Shown: one piece after another, positions 46,133 through 51,236 of the stretch
Layout of the letters: each line of letters opens with the position of its first letter
Position numbering within the stretch: the stretch's first letter is position 1
Assembly: GCF_036010665.1 (NCBI RefSeq)
Contig: NZ_CP108581.1
Coordinates: forward strand, 193,501-257,500
DNA length: 64,000 bases
Reading direction: 5' to 3'
Source of the DNA: Microbispora sp. NBC_01189
GTDB taxonomy: Bacteria; Actinomycetota; Actinomycetes; Streptosporangiales; Streptosporangiaceae
Program-made: the position numbers and the translations under genes
Notes under the pieces: generated by a model
The model's database searches: none
What the model saw: only the letters and a program-made list of their open reading frames with translations
What the model was told of the DNA's origin: nothing

Positions 46133-46204
46133 GCGGAAGTGGCTCAGTGGTAGAGCATCACCTTGCCAAGGTGAGGGTCGCGGGTTCGAATCCCGTCTTC
46201 CGCT
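46133..46204 (+). tRNA. tRNA-Gly (anticodon GCC), copy 2
   Basis: Identical over all 72 bases to the copy at 25512, including acceptor GCGGAAG/CTTCCGC and anticodon GCC. Flanking sequences differ. A TAGAGT box lies about 37 bases upstream. Confidence 0.97.
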
Positions 46205-46229
46205 CGGAGCCCGGACGACATCCGGGCAC

Positions 46230-46301
46230 GGGCGATTAGCTCAGCGGGAGAGCGCTTCCCTGACACGGAAGAGGTCACTGGTTCAATCCCAGTATCGCCC
46301 A
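46230..46301 (+). tRNA. tRNA-Val (anticodon GAC)
   Basis: The acceptor GGGCGAT pairs with ATCGCCC. The anticodon stem CTTCC/GGAAG has loop CTGACAC, giving GAC. The T-arm is CTGGTTCAATCCCAG. The discriminator A is followed by encoded CCA (46302-46304). It lies 25 bases after tRNA-Gly. Confidence 0.96.
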
Positions 46302-46904
46302 CCACCCCATCCCGGCACCCATGCAGTGGTGCCTCATCGGCCATGCGGGCCGTCGCCCCACCTCACAGGTAGCCCCATCTCGGGCAGCGCCTTCCCAACC
46401 GTGGCATCCAGTGGCGACGCCCGTGTACAGCCGCAGGCGCGCGCAGTGGCACGGGTCGCCGCGCCGGACAGGCGGCAGGGGTGCCGTGCTTACGCCGCTC
46501 ACGGTGCGGCAACTGTGCTCACGGTGCGGAAATCGGTGGTGCCGACGCCGGCCGCGGCAGGCGTCGGCACCGATATATATGAAACGACCCACGGTGCCGG
46601 ACCCGTTTTCCCGGCGTTCCGCACCGCCGGTACGGCCCCCGCCATGAGCACCGGCGTCGTCGATGGGCGCACCCATCCCTCGTCGTAATCATTTTCTATC
46701 AATTATCGCCATCCGAGCACAATCTAATTTCTGCAACGATCCCGCGACATGATCTCAATATTGTCTACATGGCGACATTTGTCGGCGAATCAGCCCTGTC
46801 CCAGCCCTGCCGTGAATTGCGACAATGACGACAGACGAGAACGAGGCCGCGTCCTCTGGACGATTCTTCTCCGCGTTTGTATGAATCCGCGCGATATGCG
46901 AACC
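46302..46904. other. Gene-free stretch after the tRNA pair
   Basis: About 600 bp without a convincing gene. It holds a 13-bp direct repeat GCTCACGGTGCGG (46497-46509 and 46517-46529) and, just after it, the 12-bp inverted repeat at 46538-46571. From about 46685 the sequence becomes clearly AT-richer than the rest of the window. The 3' side of tRNA genes is a common integration site, so it may be a scar of an excised element, but I see no integrase and no repeat of the tRNA end. Confidence 0.5.
46538..46571. terminator. 12-bp perfect hairpin in the gene-free stretch
   Basis: GGTGCCGACGCC (46538-46549) pairs with GGCGTCGGCACC (46560-46571), with a ten-base loop. It is followed by GATATATATGAAAC, which is unusually AT-rich here. 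It could end transcription from the tRNA pair, although it lies 237 bases downstream. Confidence 0.45.
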
Positions 46905-47513
46905 TCACCAGGACGTGACGACGAGGGCCTGCGGTGCGGCCCGGCGCATCCGGGTCCGCAGCCAGAGCAACTGCATGGCCGTCTCGGGGGCGCACCGGCC
47001 GGCCAGGTCGATGAGCTCGTCGTCCTTCAGCCCGCGGGCGACCAGTGCGACCAGGCTCCAGGAAAGATCGCATTCGGTCGCGAGAAGGTACAGCCTGTGC
47101 AGCTCGCGCAGCAGGACCAGGCCGCCGCCGTCCCCGCCGTCACCGCCGTTCCCGGTGGCGCGTGCGGGCGTCGGCCTCGGGCGCGCCGGCATCACGAGAC
47201 CCACCCCCTCGGGGCCCGCCCGCTGGAGCTCCGCCCGCGTCGCGTCGAGGATTACCGGATCCGGCACCCACGGCTCCATCCGATGCTCTGTCTGTCGCTC
47301 GCCCTGTTGCGGGGCCCGGTACCGCCGCTGGTACGGCTCAAGCCGCTCCGCGTGCGCCCGGCACTGCGCGGCCAGGCGCTCGCACACGCCGCACAGGTCG
47401 GGCTCCCGGGGATGACCGCGCCACAGCGCGTGGAACCCGCCGGACAGCTCCTGCTCCGTCCGCACCAGGAGCGCGAGGTAGTCCGCCAGGTGGACGGTCA
47501 CCGATCGGCCCAC
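46905..47513 (-). CDS. Hypothetical protein next to the molybdopterin oxidoreductase
   Basis: A 202-residue soluble helical protein. The N-terminal VTVHLADYLALLVRTEQELS and CGVCERLAAQCRAHAERLEP (two Cys and a His) are followed by a Pro/Gly/Asp-rich disordered middle. The helical C-terminus contains LRELHRLYLLATECDLSWSL and LKDDELIDLAGRCAPETAMQL. It reads like an accessory or structural protein. It is 77 bp downstream of the oxidoreductase on the same strand, so it is probably co-transcribed. GTG 47513 has GGGGAGG about nine bases upstream; GTG 47501 is the alternative. Function unknown. Confidence 0.6.
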   Translation of the reverse strand: MGRSVTVHLADYLALLVRTEQELSGGFHALWRGHPREPDLCGVCERLAAQCRAHAERLEPYQRRYRAPQQGERQTEHRMEPWVPDPVILDATRAELQRAGPEGVGLVMPARPRPTPARATGNGGDGGDGGGLVLLRELHRLYLLATECDLSWSLVALVARGLKDDELIDLAGRCAPETAMQLLWLRTRMRRAAPQALVVTSW

Positions 47514-47590
47514 CCGGGGGCGGCCTCCCCGCCGGCCGTACGCGCGGTGTCGGTGTCCATGGCCCCACCCCTCTCCGGTGATCGCGGACG

Positions 47591-50029
47591 TCAGACCTCC
47601 TCGTACCGCTCGCGTACGGCGACGCCGTGCCCGAGGGGCGTGACGACAGGGCAGACGCCCTCCGCGGGCGTGAGCTCCTCCGGGGGCGTGAGCTCCTCCC
47701 CGGGCTCATCCGGCCCGGGGGCGGCCCGCACCAGGCGCACCGCCGCCGCGGTGCGCAGCGGCTGCCGCGACACCGGGTCCCACGAGGTGAGCGTGAGCTC
47801 CGCCGCCGCCCGGGCCTCGGCCTCGGCCTCGGACCGGCCGCCGAGCCGCAGGACCACGGCTCCGGGGCGGACGCCCGACAGCCGGGCGACGGCCTCCAGC
47901 GCGCCCCGGGGCGACTCGGCCCGCACGAGGTCGCCCTCCTCCACGCCGTACGCCGCGGCGTCACCCGGATGGACCTCCAGGTACGGCGGGGCGGGAGACA
48001 GGCGCGGCGCCCGGCAGACGAGGAGAACCAGCGGATGCTCGTCGTCGGCCACCTCGGGAGACGGCTCGTAGTCGGCGGCGTGGAGGAACGCCCGCCCTCG
48101 GGGGTCGTCGGCGCGGTACCGCTCCTCACCGTACTCCGCGCCCGTGGCCAGGTCGGCCCCGAACGTCTGGCAGCGCCCCGGCTCGGTGGCGAACCTCCCC
48201 CCGGCGTACAGGCGTTCCGCGCCGTAGGAGCCGGCCGGCGTGCAGGGCCACTGCACGCCGCCGGCCCGCAGCCGGTCGTAGGCGATGCCGGTGTGGTCGC
48301 AGGGGCGGCCTCCGGAGCAGGCCTTCCACGCCTCGAACGCCGACTCGGCGTCGGTCCAGCCGACGAGCGGCAGGCCGTCGCGGTCGCGCAGGTCCATCCG
48401 CCGCGCGTAGTCGAGCAGGACGGCGAGGTCCGCCCTCGCCTCCCCCGGGGGTTCCACCGCCTTCTCGCACAGGTGCACCGTCCGGTCGGCGCCGGTCACC
48501 GTCCCGGTCTTCTCGCCCCAGGCGGCCGCGGGGAGCACGACGTCGGCGAGCAGCGCGGTTTCGGTGAGGTACGGATCCTGGACGACGACGAACAGGTCCT
48601 CGCGGGCGAGGACCTGATCCAGCCCGGGAGTCGTGCTCACGGGGTCGGACGCGGTGATCCACAGCAGCCCGACGGAGCCCTCCTCGGCGTACCTGAAGAT
48701 CTGGGCCGCGTGGGTGGCCGGCCCCCAGTGCGGGATGACGGCGGGGTCGACGTTCCAGAGCGCGGCCAGTTCGCGCACGTGTCCCGGGTCGGCCCAGTTG
48801 CGCAGGCCGGGCAGGTCCCCGGCCGAGCCCGTCTCCAGGGCGTCGCAGCCCGGCCCGCCGAGCTGGAACAGCCCGGCCCCGGGCCTGCCCAGCATGCCGA
48901 GCAGCAGGTGGAGGTTGTCGACCTGGCAGGCCGCGGCCGTGGCCTGGTTGGAGCCGAGGAGGGCCGGGCCGACGGTCGACACCAGCCGTTCGGCGGCGCC
49001 CAGGATCTCGGCGGCCTGCTCGATCCGCGCGACCGGCACCCCGCAGATCTCCGCCGCCCGCTTGGCCGGGTACGCCTCGACGGTCCGCCACAGCCGTTCG
49101 ACGCCGACGGTGTGCGCGGCGGCGTAGGCCGCGTCGTGCCAGCCGTTCGCGAGGAGCTCGTGCAGCAGGCCGTTGAGCAGGGCCACGTTGGTGCCGCGGC
49201 GCACGGCGAGGTGGACGTCGGCCTCCCTGGCGGCGGGCGTCCGGTCGGGATCGGCCACGATCATCGCGGGTGGCCCGGGGCCGAGCCTCCGGTCGAGCAT
49301 CCGCTCCCACAGCACGGGGTGGCAGGCCGCGCAGTCGTGGCCCCACAGCGCGAGCGCGTCGCAGTGGTCCACGTCGGTGTACGAGCCGGGCTGGCCGTCG
49401 GTGCCGAAGCTCGCCGCGAGGGCGGTCGCCGCCGCAGCCGCGCACCCGCGGGTGTCGCCGTCCATGTGCGGGGTGCCGATGCCCGCCTTGCCGATCACGG
49501 CGAGCGTGTAGTGCTCCTCCAGGAACAGCCGGGGGCCCGTGTGGAAGGCGATCCGGGCCCAGCCGCCGGGCGCCGCGAGCAGCCGCCTCGACCGGGTGAC
49601 GACGCGGTCCATCGCGATGTCCCACGTCGACTCGACCAGACGCCCGCCCTCGCGTACGAGGGGCCGGGTCAGCCGTCCCGGGCGTGGCTGCCAGGCGGGC
49701 CACTCGCGCGGATCCAGCCTGCCGTGGTTGACCCGGTCATTGGCCCGGCCGCGTACGCCCACCACCCGCCCGCCGCGCACCGCCAGGTCGACGGCGTCCC
49801 CGTGGGAACCGGCCGCCGAAGCGGCGGGGACCCAGCACTCGACGTCGTCCTCGGTGACGCCGTCTTCCAGGAACACGTCGACCCGCACCGGCCATGGGCT
49901 GCCCCGGCGGATGACCGGGGGAAGCGCGTCGCGCATGCGCCCCGGCAGGGCCGCGGCCAGCCGTTCCACCGCGTCGGGAGGTCCGTACGGCGTGCGCCGC
50001 CCCCTGGGATCGGCGATCCGGTCCAGCAC
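47591..50029 (-). CDS. Molybdopterin oxidoreductase (Nas/Fdh-like) lacking the Fe-S cysteines
   Basis: An 812-residue DMSO-reductase-superfamily protein. The body matches the actinobacterial nitrate reductase/formate dehydrogenase-like family: GKAGIGTPHMDGDTRGCAAA near 181-200 (Cys197 at the Mo-ligand position), GTNVALLNGLLHEL, WVPA, WGEKTGTVTGADRTVHLCEKA and ESAFEAWKACSGGRPCD. The N-terminal segment WVPAASAAGSHGDAVDLAV (66-84) has S, G, D and V where I expect four cysteines of the [4Fe-4S] site. The C-terminal TGRxxxHxHTxTxTGR cofactor motif is also missing near 665-690. GTG 50029 follows GGAGG by six bases. It may be a diverged paralogue with altered chemistry or no activity. Confidence 0.85.
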   Translation of the reverse strand: MLDRIADPRGRRTPYGPPDAVERLAAALPGRMRDALPPVIRRGSPWPVRVDVFLEDGVTEDDVECWVPAASAAGSHGDAVDLAVRGGRVVGVRGRANDRVNHGRLDPREWPAWQPRPGRLTRPLVREGGRLVESTWDIAMDRVVTRSRRLLAAPGGWARIAFHTGPRLFLEEHYTLAVIGKAGIGTPHMDGDTRGCAAAAATALAASFGTDGQPGSYTDVDHCDALALWGHDCAACHPVLWERMLDRRLGPGPPAMIVADPDRTPAAREADVHLAVRRGTNVALLNGLLHELLANGWHDAAYAAAHTVGVERLWRTVEAYPAKRAAEICGVPVARIEQAAEILGAAERLVSTVGPALLGSNQATAAACQVDNLHLLLGMLGRPGAGLFQLGGPGCDALETGSAGDLPGLRNWADPGHVRELAALWNVDPAVIPHWGPATHAAQIFRYAEEGSVGLLWITASDPVSTTPGLDQVLAREDLFVVVQDPYLTETALLADVVLPAAAWGEKTGTVTGADRTVHLCEKAVEPPGEARADLAVLLDYARRMDLRDRDGLPLVGWTDAESAFEAWKACSGGRPCDHTGIAYDRLRAGGVQWPCTPAGSYGAERLYAGGRFATEPGRCQTFGADLATGAEYGEERYRADDPRGRAFLHAADYEPSPEVADDEHPLVLLVCRAPRLSPAPPYLEVHPGDAAAYGVEEGDLVRAESPRGALEAVARLSGVRPGAVVLRLGGRSEAEAEARAAAELTLTSWDPVSRQPLRTAAAVRLVRAAPGPDEPGEELTPPEELTPAEGVCPVVTPLGHGVAVRERYEEV

Positions 50030-50138
50030 CTGGCACCTCCGCGGTGACGATGTGTGAACGACGCTCCCCGTACCCGGCGCAATGTCCTTCTGATCCCGGA
50101 TTCGCCCGAACTGACCGGTTCCTTTTCGAATACTTTCC

Positions 50139-51236
50139 TCAGCGTGATCCGCTCAGTGATCCGTTGAGCGATCCGTTCAGGTAGCGCTCGGCCAGCTCGC
50201 AGCTGTCGCGCGTGTAGCCGGCGCCGAGCCGGGCGGCCCCGGCGGCGGCCGGGTGGGAGCCGATCCAGGCGACGAGGAGGAGGCGGCGGAACAGGATGAA
50301 CGTCCAGATCTCGGCCTCGTCCTCCTTCGGGAGGTCGAGCACGGTCCGGTAGCCGCGCACCCACGACTCCGCCATGTGCGGCACCTCGGGCCGGTGCTCG
50401 ATGAAGCTGACGGCGGCGGCGAGGTCGTACAGGTACCAGCCGAGGCCGCAGTCGTCGAAGTCGATGACGCCGACCTCCGCCTCGCCGTCCACCAGCAGGT
50501 TGGCCAGGCGGAGGTCGGCGTGGATGAGCCCGTACCGGTCCGGGCCCGTGCCGTAACGCCCCAGCCTGCGGCGCAGCTCGGCCTCCAGGCGGGTGAGCAC
50601 GGCGCGCGCCGCACGGTCGACCCCCACGCCGTCCTGCCATCTGCCCCAGCGGGGCGAGGGCCCGAAGGCGGCGTCGAGGTCCCAGTGGAAGCGGGTGAAG
50701 GAGGCCGGCCTCGCCCAGCCCCGGGCGTGCCGGTGCATGCGGGCGGTCAGCGCGCCCAGCCGCTCGAACTCCTCCACCAGCCGGTCCTCGGCCGGTTCGG
50801 CGCCGGGGAGGAACTCGAACATCACGCAGTGGCGGGGCTCGGCGCCCGGGTCCTCGACCGTGACGACACGGGACCCGTCGCGGGCCGGCAGCACGCGGGG
50901 CGTGACGACGCCCGCCTCCTCGCGCAACGCCTCCAGCCAGGCCAGCTCGCTGGCGATGGCGGCCGGCGACTGGTAGCCGAGCCGGTGGACCCGCAGGATC
51001 GCGCGCGTCGCGCCGCGCATGCCGCCGTCCGGCACGCCGTCCGTTCCGCCCTCTGCCCCGCCGTCCGGCACGCCGTCCGTCCCGCCGGTGTGCACGGTGA
51101 AGGTCGCGTTCTCCGACACGTTGAGCAACGTCACGGCGGCGTCCGGGGGCAGCCCGTACCGCTCAAGGGCACGGCGGGCGATCCCCTCGACGCGGGTGAG
51201 GACGTCTCCGCCGCCGGACAGGTCGTGGACCTGCAT
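50139..51236 (-). CDS. Phosphotransferase, APH/choline kinase-like
   Basis: A 365-residue APH-fold kinase. The substrate lobe begins RALERYGLPPDAAVTLLNVSENATF. The catalytic loop GLIHADLRLANLLVD is near 247, and GVIDFDDCGLGWYLYDLAAA near 268 holds the metal Asp, so the active site is intact. Two repeat-derived insertions are odd: a GGTDGVPDGG-type doublet near 50-72 (DNA repeat about 51015-51090), and NGSLNGSLSGSR at the end. Both look like recent tandem duplications. The AGGAG before the ATG is close. It diverges from nothing; the molybdopterin gene lies downstream. Confidence 0.85.
   Translation of the reverse strand: MQVHDLSGGGDVLTRVEGIARRALERYGLPPDAAVTLLNVSENATFTVHTGGTDGVPDGGAEGGTDGVPDGGMRGATRAILRVHRLGYQSPAAIASELAWLEALREEAGVVTPRVLPARDGSRVVTVEDPGAEPRHCVMFEFLPGAEPAEDRLVEEFERLGALTARMHRHARGWARPASFTRFHWDLDAAFGPSPRWGRWQDGVGVDRAARAVLTRLEAELRRRLGRYGTGPDRYGLIHADLRLANLLVDGEAEVGVIDFDDCGLGWYLYDLAAAVSFIEHRPEVPHMAESWVRGYRTVLDLPKEDEAEIWTFILFRRLLLVAWIGSHPAAAGAARLGAGYTRDSCELAERYLNGSLNGSLSGSR

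Follow-up and report, generated by a model that had tools for sequence, protein, structure and literature searches.

Is a molybdopterin oxidoreductase still an enzyme once the cysteines of its [4Fe-4S] cluster are gone, and, if not, in what form does it persist? The question is raised by a gene in a 64,000-nucleotide stretch of Microbispora sp. NBC_01189 (contig NZ_CP108581.1, forward-strand positions 193,501 to 257,500), which is here called the window and in which all coordinates are counted. The gene (47591-50029, reverse strand) encodes an 812-residue protein that translation, profile matches and predicted fold place among MopB-fold proteins of Nas/Nap/Fdh-like type, as a family member that itself lacks the cluster and cofactor motifs. 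A preliminary description, made from the sequence alone, had reported this open frame with Ser71, Gly74, Asp78 and Val80 at the expected cysteine positions and a strong ribosome site; translation bears out the former, and a Shine-Dalgarno-like GGAGGTG (50034-50040, reverse strand) does stand just upstream of the GTG start. Our analysis assigns a probability of roughly 0.72 to the reading that the protein is a cofactor-free pseudoenzyme, kept together with a small partner protein and derived from a family of cluster-less molybdoenzymes. The exchange of Cys/Cys/Gly for His/Asp/Asp in its relatives is the wider and more interesting point.

Membership of the MopB superfamily is evident from the fold. 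The Pfam Molybdopterin domain (PF00384) matches the query with 140 bits against a cut-off of 24 (E 1e-40), the AlphaFold model reaches a pLDDT (predicted local distance difference test) of 85 and a pTM (predicted template modelling score) of 0.88, and the closest PDB entry by sequence and fold is D. desulfuricans NapA, with 28% identity, a Foldseek E of 2e-55 and a template modelling score (TM) of 0.84 by target. The match to the dinucleotide-binding domain (PF01568) is partial and starts at position 26 of the profile; the Fe4S4 domain (PF04879) stays below its cut-off (12.9 against 22.7 bits). The query also falls under the cut-off of each of the 25 NCBIfam models listed, including the equivalogs NasA (276 of the 1000 bits needed), NasC (247 of 1100), NapA (187 of 904), formate dehydrogenase alpha TIGR01591 (298 of 666), NuoG (67 of 470) and QrcB (58 of 440), as well as TorA (34 of 909) and the bisC family (72 of 1018). 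As to the marks of active enzymes in the superfamily, the cluster cysteines, which are not universal in it, are absent at positions 71, 74 and 78, and so are the C-terminal motifs TGRxxxHxHT, whose absence had already been pointed out, and PFHYGYWD.

Homologues were collected in overlapping searches of 60 relatives, 296 genomes of the phylum, 250 of the family and 394 of the class, to which the best 80 of at least 436 loci of a genome scan (the top ones from Microbispora, family Streptosporangiaceae) and annotated plasmids were added; sampling beyond the Actinomycetota consists of a few plasmid records. The alignment comprises 194 rows, 193 of them distinct (the query occurs twice), where distinct means a non-identical core sequence and near-copies remain. 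By cysteines at the cluster site, these 193 divide into 24 rows with three, none with one or two, 168 with zero and a single fragment without the site (L136). Zero cysteines are combined with the molybdenum (Mo) ligand cysteine and the TGR motif in 144 rows, and an intact-type row, L205, has NGR replacing TGR. Another 24 distinct rows, the query's among them, are decayed at the Mo site or the C-terminal motifs; one of these, L046, is counted also among the 144.

The former iron-sulfur (Fe-S) ligand positions 71, 74 and 78 (49796-49819, reverse strand) carry three cysteines in the three-cysteine rows and Ser (or Thr or Ala), His and Asp in undecayed zero-cysteine rows. The fourth canonical cysteine ('RLC-x-KG') aligns with residue 106, and not with Val80 as first proposed. 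It lies in a segment, residues 106-109 (DPRE in the query; 49703-49714, reverse strand), in which position 106 is Gly in 24/24 three-cysteine rows and position 108, Arg in the query, is Lys in 142/143 undecayed zero-cysteine rows, presumably the residue between cluster and pterin. Position 109 is Glu in the query. His74, Asp78 and Asp109 are each present in 143/143 undecayed zero-cysteine rows (L046 left out), as against Cys, Cys and Gly in 24/24 three-cysteine rows. No other alignment column is fixed differently (at least 90%) between the two groups, residue 8 having passed as a fourth in an earlier and smaller set (86 versus 11 rows). Since these three columns alone are fixed differently, the loss of cysteines looks like replacement rather than decay. 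An idle cavity, moreover, ought to vary, as is seen at position 74 within the decayed branch, and we hence take the triad to be a functional substitute, whether as a packing and hydrogen-bond plug or as a metal site. New compensating cysteines in the catalytic protein were also considered, and are ruled out by the same comparison.

It is quite conceivable, if somewhat short of an even chance, that the triad is mere structural filler without metal and that the enzymes of this wider clade are inactive too. We found no assay of a zero-cysteine enzyme in the open-access literature, which leaves room for this explanation. Its inactivity part sits poorly with the joint presence of the Mo-ligand cysteine, TGR and HYG motifs in 140 of the 144 zero-cysteine rows with the first two, and neutral drift at the site with the invariance of the triad.

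The phylogeny places these changes in order. In a rooted tree of 54 rows, which includes ten four-cysteine Nas-like outgroup rows and from which 15 of 59 ingroup rows had been dropped, three-cysteine rows are basal, zero-cysteine rows form one clade (99/96) and the decayed rows, here eight, form one clade within it (100/100), next to Planobispora (97/84). Two further trees, of 98 and 60 rows and not usefully rooted, have the zero-cysteine rows on one side of a branch, and 19 decayed rows again form one clade (100/100) in a tree of 28 rows. Three-cysteine rows include Deinococcus, Halomonas, Hymenobacter and several actinobacteria; the named zero-cysteine rows are all actinobacterial, with thin sampling beyond that phylum. 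A Gloeothece row bears the three-cysteine label in the 60- and 54-row trees, but its frame as read starts past those positions, and it stands outside the 193. Of the 24 decayed rows, 15 belong to Microbispora, six to Planotetraspora, two to the Sphaerimonospora type and one to another genus, some genus assignments being inferred; L046 is Planotetraspora by its NCBI name, and its genome bears a different genus code in the family search. Judged by alignment and trees, the loss of the cysteines is thus old and common to the whole zero-cysteine clade, and the further losses are shared by the 15 Microbispora rows. A loss peculiar to the query's genome is excluded by this distribution, and a frameshift or sequencing artefact by the agreement of 15 Microbispora genomes.

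Within the decayed branch it is the Mo site that has gone. The Mo-ligand position is residue 196 (49442-49444, reverse strand), not 197 as first numbered; it is indeed Cys in the query, and the description of the ligand as kept applies to 3 of 15 Microbispora rows, the other 12 having Gly (10), Gln (1) or Asp (1). Across all 24 decayed rows the position is Cys in four, Gly in 14, Ser in two, and Gln, Asp, Trp or a gap in one each. Cys196 of the query adjoins Gly195, where other Microbispora have Trp, and on the 28-row tree its regain requires three changes and its retention four losses; it may thus be secondary rather than kept. Residues 670-690 (47960-48022, reverse strand), which correspond to TGRxxxHFHTRTKT in relatives, and residues 724-745 (47795-47860, reverse strand), which correspond to VFxPFHYGYWD, have lost their motifs. 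A complete TGRxxxHxHT is found in 0/24 decayed rows, and both motifs are gone in 15/15 Microbispora rows. The C-terminal cofactor domain itself has been lost in 7/24 decayed rows from two genera: five of six Planotetraspora rows retain 16 residues against a median of 119 in 140 intact rows, an in-frame loss of about 100 residues, and in both Sphaerimonospora-type rows (L053 and L194) it is replaced, in open frame, by repeat-like and mostly low-complexity sequence of 56 and 72 residues.

The remainder of the protein is well preserved. A set of 270 columns is constant in at least 95% of 97 intact rows; of these the query retains 25/28 in residues 1-115, 129/167 in residues 116-540, 28/30 in residues 541-655 and 22/45 from residue 656 on. 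Six Microbispora pairs together give a ratio of nonsynonymous to synonymous rates (w) of 0.278. By region, w is about 0.22 in both the first and the second, 0.253 in the third and 0.507 in the C-terminal domain, well under 1 in each of the four (Fisher p 3e-7 to 9e-59); six intact pairs give 0.147, with 0.162 in the C-terminal domain. These are Nei-Gojobori (NG86) estimates, which ignore codon bias, and, since high GC content tends to deflate the synonymous rate, w is if anything overstated. The values indicate a protein under selection, in which most of the relaxation falls on the cofactor domain; close pairs that involve the query itself give 0.17 and 0.28 for that domain on few changes, and relaxation there is not clear. 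The proposal of a diverged paralogue, on the other hand, finds no support. In the search of 250 family genomes, which scored a few top candidates from each genome, every one of the 15 Microbispora genomes yields one family match at E 1e-200, and, instead of an intact paralogue, the next best match in the source genome is a Nas-like protein with 37% identity.

The co-directional 'Cys-containing unknown protein' that the preliminary description had placed at 46905 turns out to be a conserved partner. Its gene (open reading frame 46905-47513, reverse strand, with a start at 47501 preferred by homology, hence 46905-47501) encodes a helical, predicted four-helix-bundle protein, a profile of which matches in the fetched stretch of 189/193 distinct loci. 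It lies on the same strand, just past the stop of the MopB gene, in 119 of 121 loci with positions listed (some genomes twice). One of the four loci without a match ends with its contig (L133), whereas L135, L241 and L242 have room for the gene. In Halomonas (L155, KO116 plasmid) the partner is fused to the C-terminus of a three-cysteine catalytic protein of 942 residues, which is good evidence that catalytic protein and partner form a complex; genes for an HPP family protein, fdhD, a DUF1641 protein and formate dehydrogenase are next in line. A short ATG...TGA frame of some 20 codons (47498-47560, reverse strand) lies between the two genes of the query, its TGA overlapping the GTG that is preferred as start of the partner (GTGA). 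Several relatives have a direct overlap of the partner with the catalytic gene, and the coupling may thus have been rebuilt in the query's locus.

The model of the partner consists of four long helices (pLDDT 83). Ferritins and bacterioferritins top its Foldseek ranking with a probability of about 1.0, yet with E 0.02, a root-mean-square deviation (rmsd) of 8-13 Å and a TM by query of at most 0.60 among the matches listed, and no match reaches E 0.001. Out of 42 partner sequences scanned, 11 match DUF2383 (best E 9e-5), and DUF1641 is not among the 20 families that these sequences match. Residue counts over 103 partner rows of usable length, which include 9 of 19 decayed ones, reveal a [DE]33-x-x-His36 motif on helix 2 of most zero-cysteine partners, with His36 in 72/85 of them against 3/9 three-cysteine and 0/9 decayed rows (Gly in 9/9); a second ExxH could not be established in these counts. 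A metal site in the partner is therefore possible on the basis of this motif. Although His36 is commoner beside zero-cysteine enzymes, we reject the idea that the partner arose to replace the lost cluster, given that it is already found beside three-cysteine enzymes.

Several observations weigh against a cofactor-free pseudoenzyme maintained by selection. The query and the two relatives closest to it have Cys as the Mo-ligand residue, so that residual cofactor binding is possible. Wider pairs within the decayed branch reach a w of 0.36, and the relaxed constraint could reflect slow decay instead of a new role. The decayed partners drift at candidate residues (Lys184 0/9, His36 0/9, His48 3/9, Gln151 5/9). 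Family-specific matches at E 1e-200 occur in 67/250 family genomes, that is, the gene is not general in Streptosporangiaceae. Finally, AioA holds its Mo-bis(pyranopterin guanine dinucleotide) cofactor (bisPGD) without any amino-acid ligand, according to PMC10100899, and our searches of the open-access literature found nothing on biochemistry, expression or metal content tied to any family member. The query might still be a working Mo or tungsten (W) enzyme, either AioA-like, without a protein ligand, or by way of Cys196, with direct electron transfer. The large conservation of domains II and III and the purifying selection would suit such an enzyme, which we nonetheless consider unlikely, as the Mo position is occupied by other residues in 12/15 Microbispora, both C-terminal motifs are gone in the 15 rows of that genus and the cofactor domain is missing in 5 of 6 Planotetraspora and 2 of 2 Sphaerimonospora rows from sister genera. 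That the gene is functionless and decaying toward loss, as the relaxed w, the drifting partner and losses that differ between genera might suggest, is very unlikely in view of a frame that is open in 15/15 Microbispora genomes searched, the constraint in all four regions and the retention of the partner.

The pseudoenzyme reading thus remains the preferred one, and the course of events begins with a molybdoenzyme family of two genes, one for a Nas/Fdh-like catalytic protein and one for a small helical partner; the enzyme was probably cytoplasmic, as inspection by eye revealed no signal peptide. The sequences show the next steps. Three-cysteine members of the family already lack the fourth Fe-S cysteine. 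One branch then lost the remaining three, with His74, Asp78 and Asp109 becoming fixed at the former cluster site and the Mo-ligand cysteine and bis-molybdopterin guanine dinucleotide (bis-MGD) motifs staying in place. The query's Streptosporangiaceae branch finally lost the Mo-ligand position and both C-terminal motifs, and two of its genera also the C-terminal cofactor domain, whereas the remainder and the partner stayed. From this point the reading is inference: the query would no longer perform Mo redox chemistry, but would keep its fold, perhaps with the guanosine pocket, and form with its partner a complex of structural or regulatory role. In the intact zero-cysteine clade the Mo centre would work without a proximal cluster, and His/Asp/Asp would fill the cavity or bind a single metal ion. 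The two functional suggestions of the preliminary description may thus each be right at a different level: altered electron flow fits the whole zero-cysteine clade, in which the Mo-ligand cysteine and cofactor motifs are kept and cluster cysteines are absent, and the branch of the query itself, in which the Mo site is lost too and purifying selection persists, suits an inactive regulator or scaffold. A more ambitious version, which we hold to be doubtful, is that the clade exchanged its Fe-S cluster, with no intermediate found, for a mononuclear metal site formed by His74, Asp78 and Asp109, perhaps with residue 106; Mo chemistry would then proceed beside a hard-ligand metal or with no relay, a metal-binding helical-bundle subunit would act as redox or docking partner, and one branch would later have dropped the Mo site and survived as a scaffold.

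Comparison with known systems sets the family apart. The query resembles the nitrate reductases NapA, NasC, NasA and NarB, also MopB proteins, in fold, length and domain order, but it lacks their cluster cysteines and cofactor motifs and scores far under the NasA, NasC and NapA cut-offs. Even intact relatives differ from canonical rows in having Thr after the Mo-ligand cysteine (RLCTAT) where the canonical R[LF]CM has Met. The cluster-less dimethyl sulfoxide (DMSO) reductases, such as DorA, TorA and BisC, are likewise MopB catalytic proteins without an N-terminal cluster. They use Ser as Mo ligand, however, whereas the zero-cysteine clade is Cys-ligated by sequence, has the invariant His/Asp/Asp and originated inside a Nas-like lineage. 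MopB proteins that lack the cluster or lack Mo have been described before, and Nqo3/NuoG, ActB and QrcB have the MopB fold without Mo/W-bisPGD (PMC10100899, PMC6303296). These proteins sit in complexes with other redox subunits, unlike the query, which has no Fe-S motif and one small helical partner. The ForCE formate dehydrogenase (Bacillus YjgCD) pairs a catalytic subunit that carries Mo-bisPGD with an essential small partner encoded alongside (PMC8808070). ForC1 is among the fold matches of the query, and the adjacent small partner is a further likeness; ForE, however, has the DUF1641 domain, which is absent from the matches of the 42 family partners scanned. These partners share with ferritin-like bundles the four long predicted helices, the Foldseek ranking and, in many zero-cysteine partners, [DE]xxH on helix 2, and differ from them in the poor structural superposition and in that part of a di-iron ligand set, rather than a full one, is recognized. 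In structures of apo-NarG, guanosine diphosphate (GDP) occupies cofactor positions (PMC10609526), which makes a retained guanosine pocket possible in the query as well.

Cluster-less and cofactor-less MopB proteins are thus known, and it is the intermediate steps that are hard to see. The family analyzed here offers a living series, from four cysteines in the outgroup through three, and then none with His/Asp/Asp, to loss of the Mo site; one and the same partner gene accompanies it from three cysteines onward. This series makes it testable how metalloenzymes lose or exchange cofactors. It also puts a flag on annotation, in that several plasmid records name relatives 'nitrate reductase', a label borne by proteins that have no cysteines to hold the cluster on which nitrate reductases rely.

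Beyond the partner, a conserved wider neighbourhood was sought and rejected: among the 80 named loci, the best of at least 436 and with crude gene calling, the partner cluster occurs in 44 and the next cluster in 13. HPP-family genes occur close to the relatives in Curtobacterium, Deinococcus, Halomonas and Gloeothece, and some of these relatives also have FNT, fdhD or molybdopterin-binding genes nearby; such neighbours hint at chemistry of nitrate/nitrite or formate. Of the 10 plasmid neighbourhoods (L149-L158), 8 have the gene close to stress-type or HPP genes (four-helix copper-binding protein, thiamine-pyrophosphate protein, GH15, trehalase, HPP). In the window, an APH-family (PF01636) kinase-like gene (50139-51236, reverse strand) lies just upstream of the MopB gene and on the same strand; a few Microbispora loci and one Planotetraspora locus have tblastn matches to it in the vicinity of their MopB genes. 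Downstream of the gene pair, tRNA-Gly(gcc) (46133-46205) and tRNA-Val(gac) (46230-46304) are encoded on the forward strand, and the long frames over both are probably spurious. Elsewhere in the source genome (L005, G000:C1:2605683-2607155) and in several congeners, a formate-dehydrogenase-like gene contains an in-frame TGA, possibly encoding selenocysteine.

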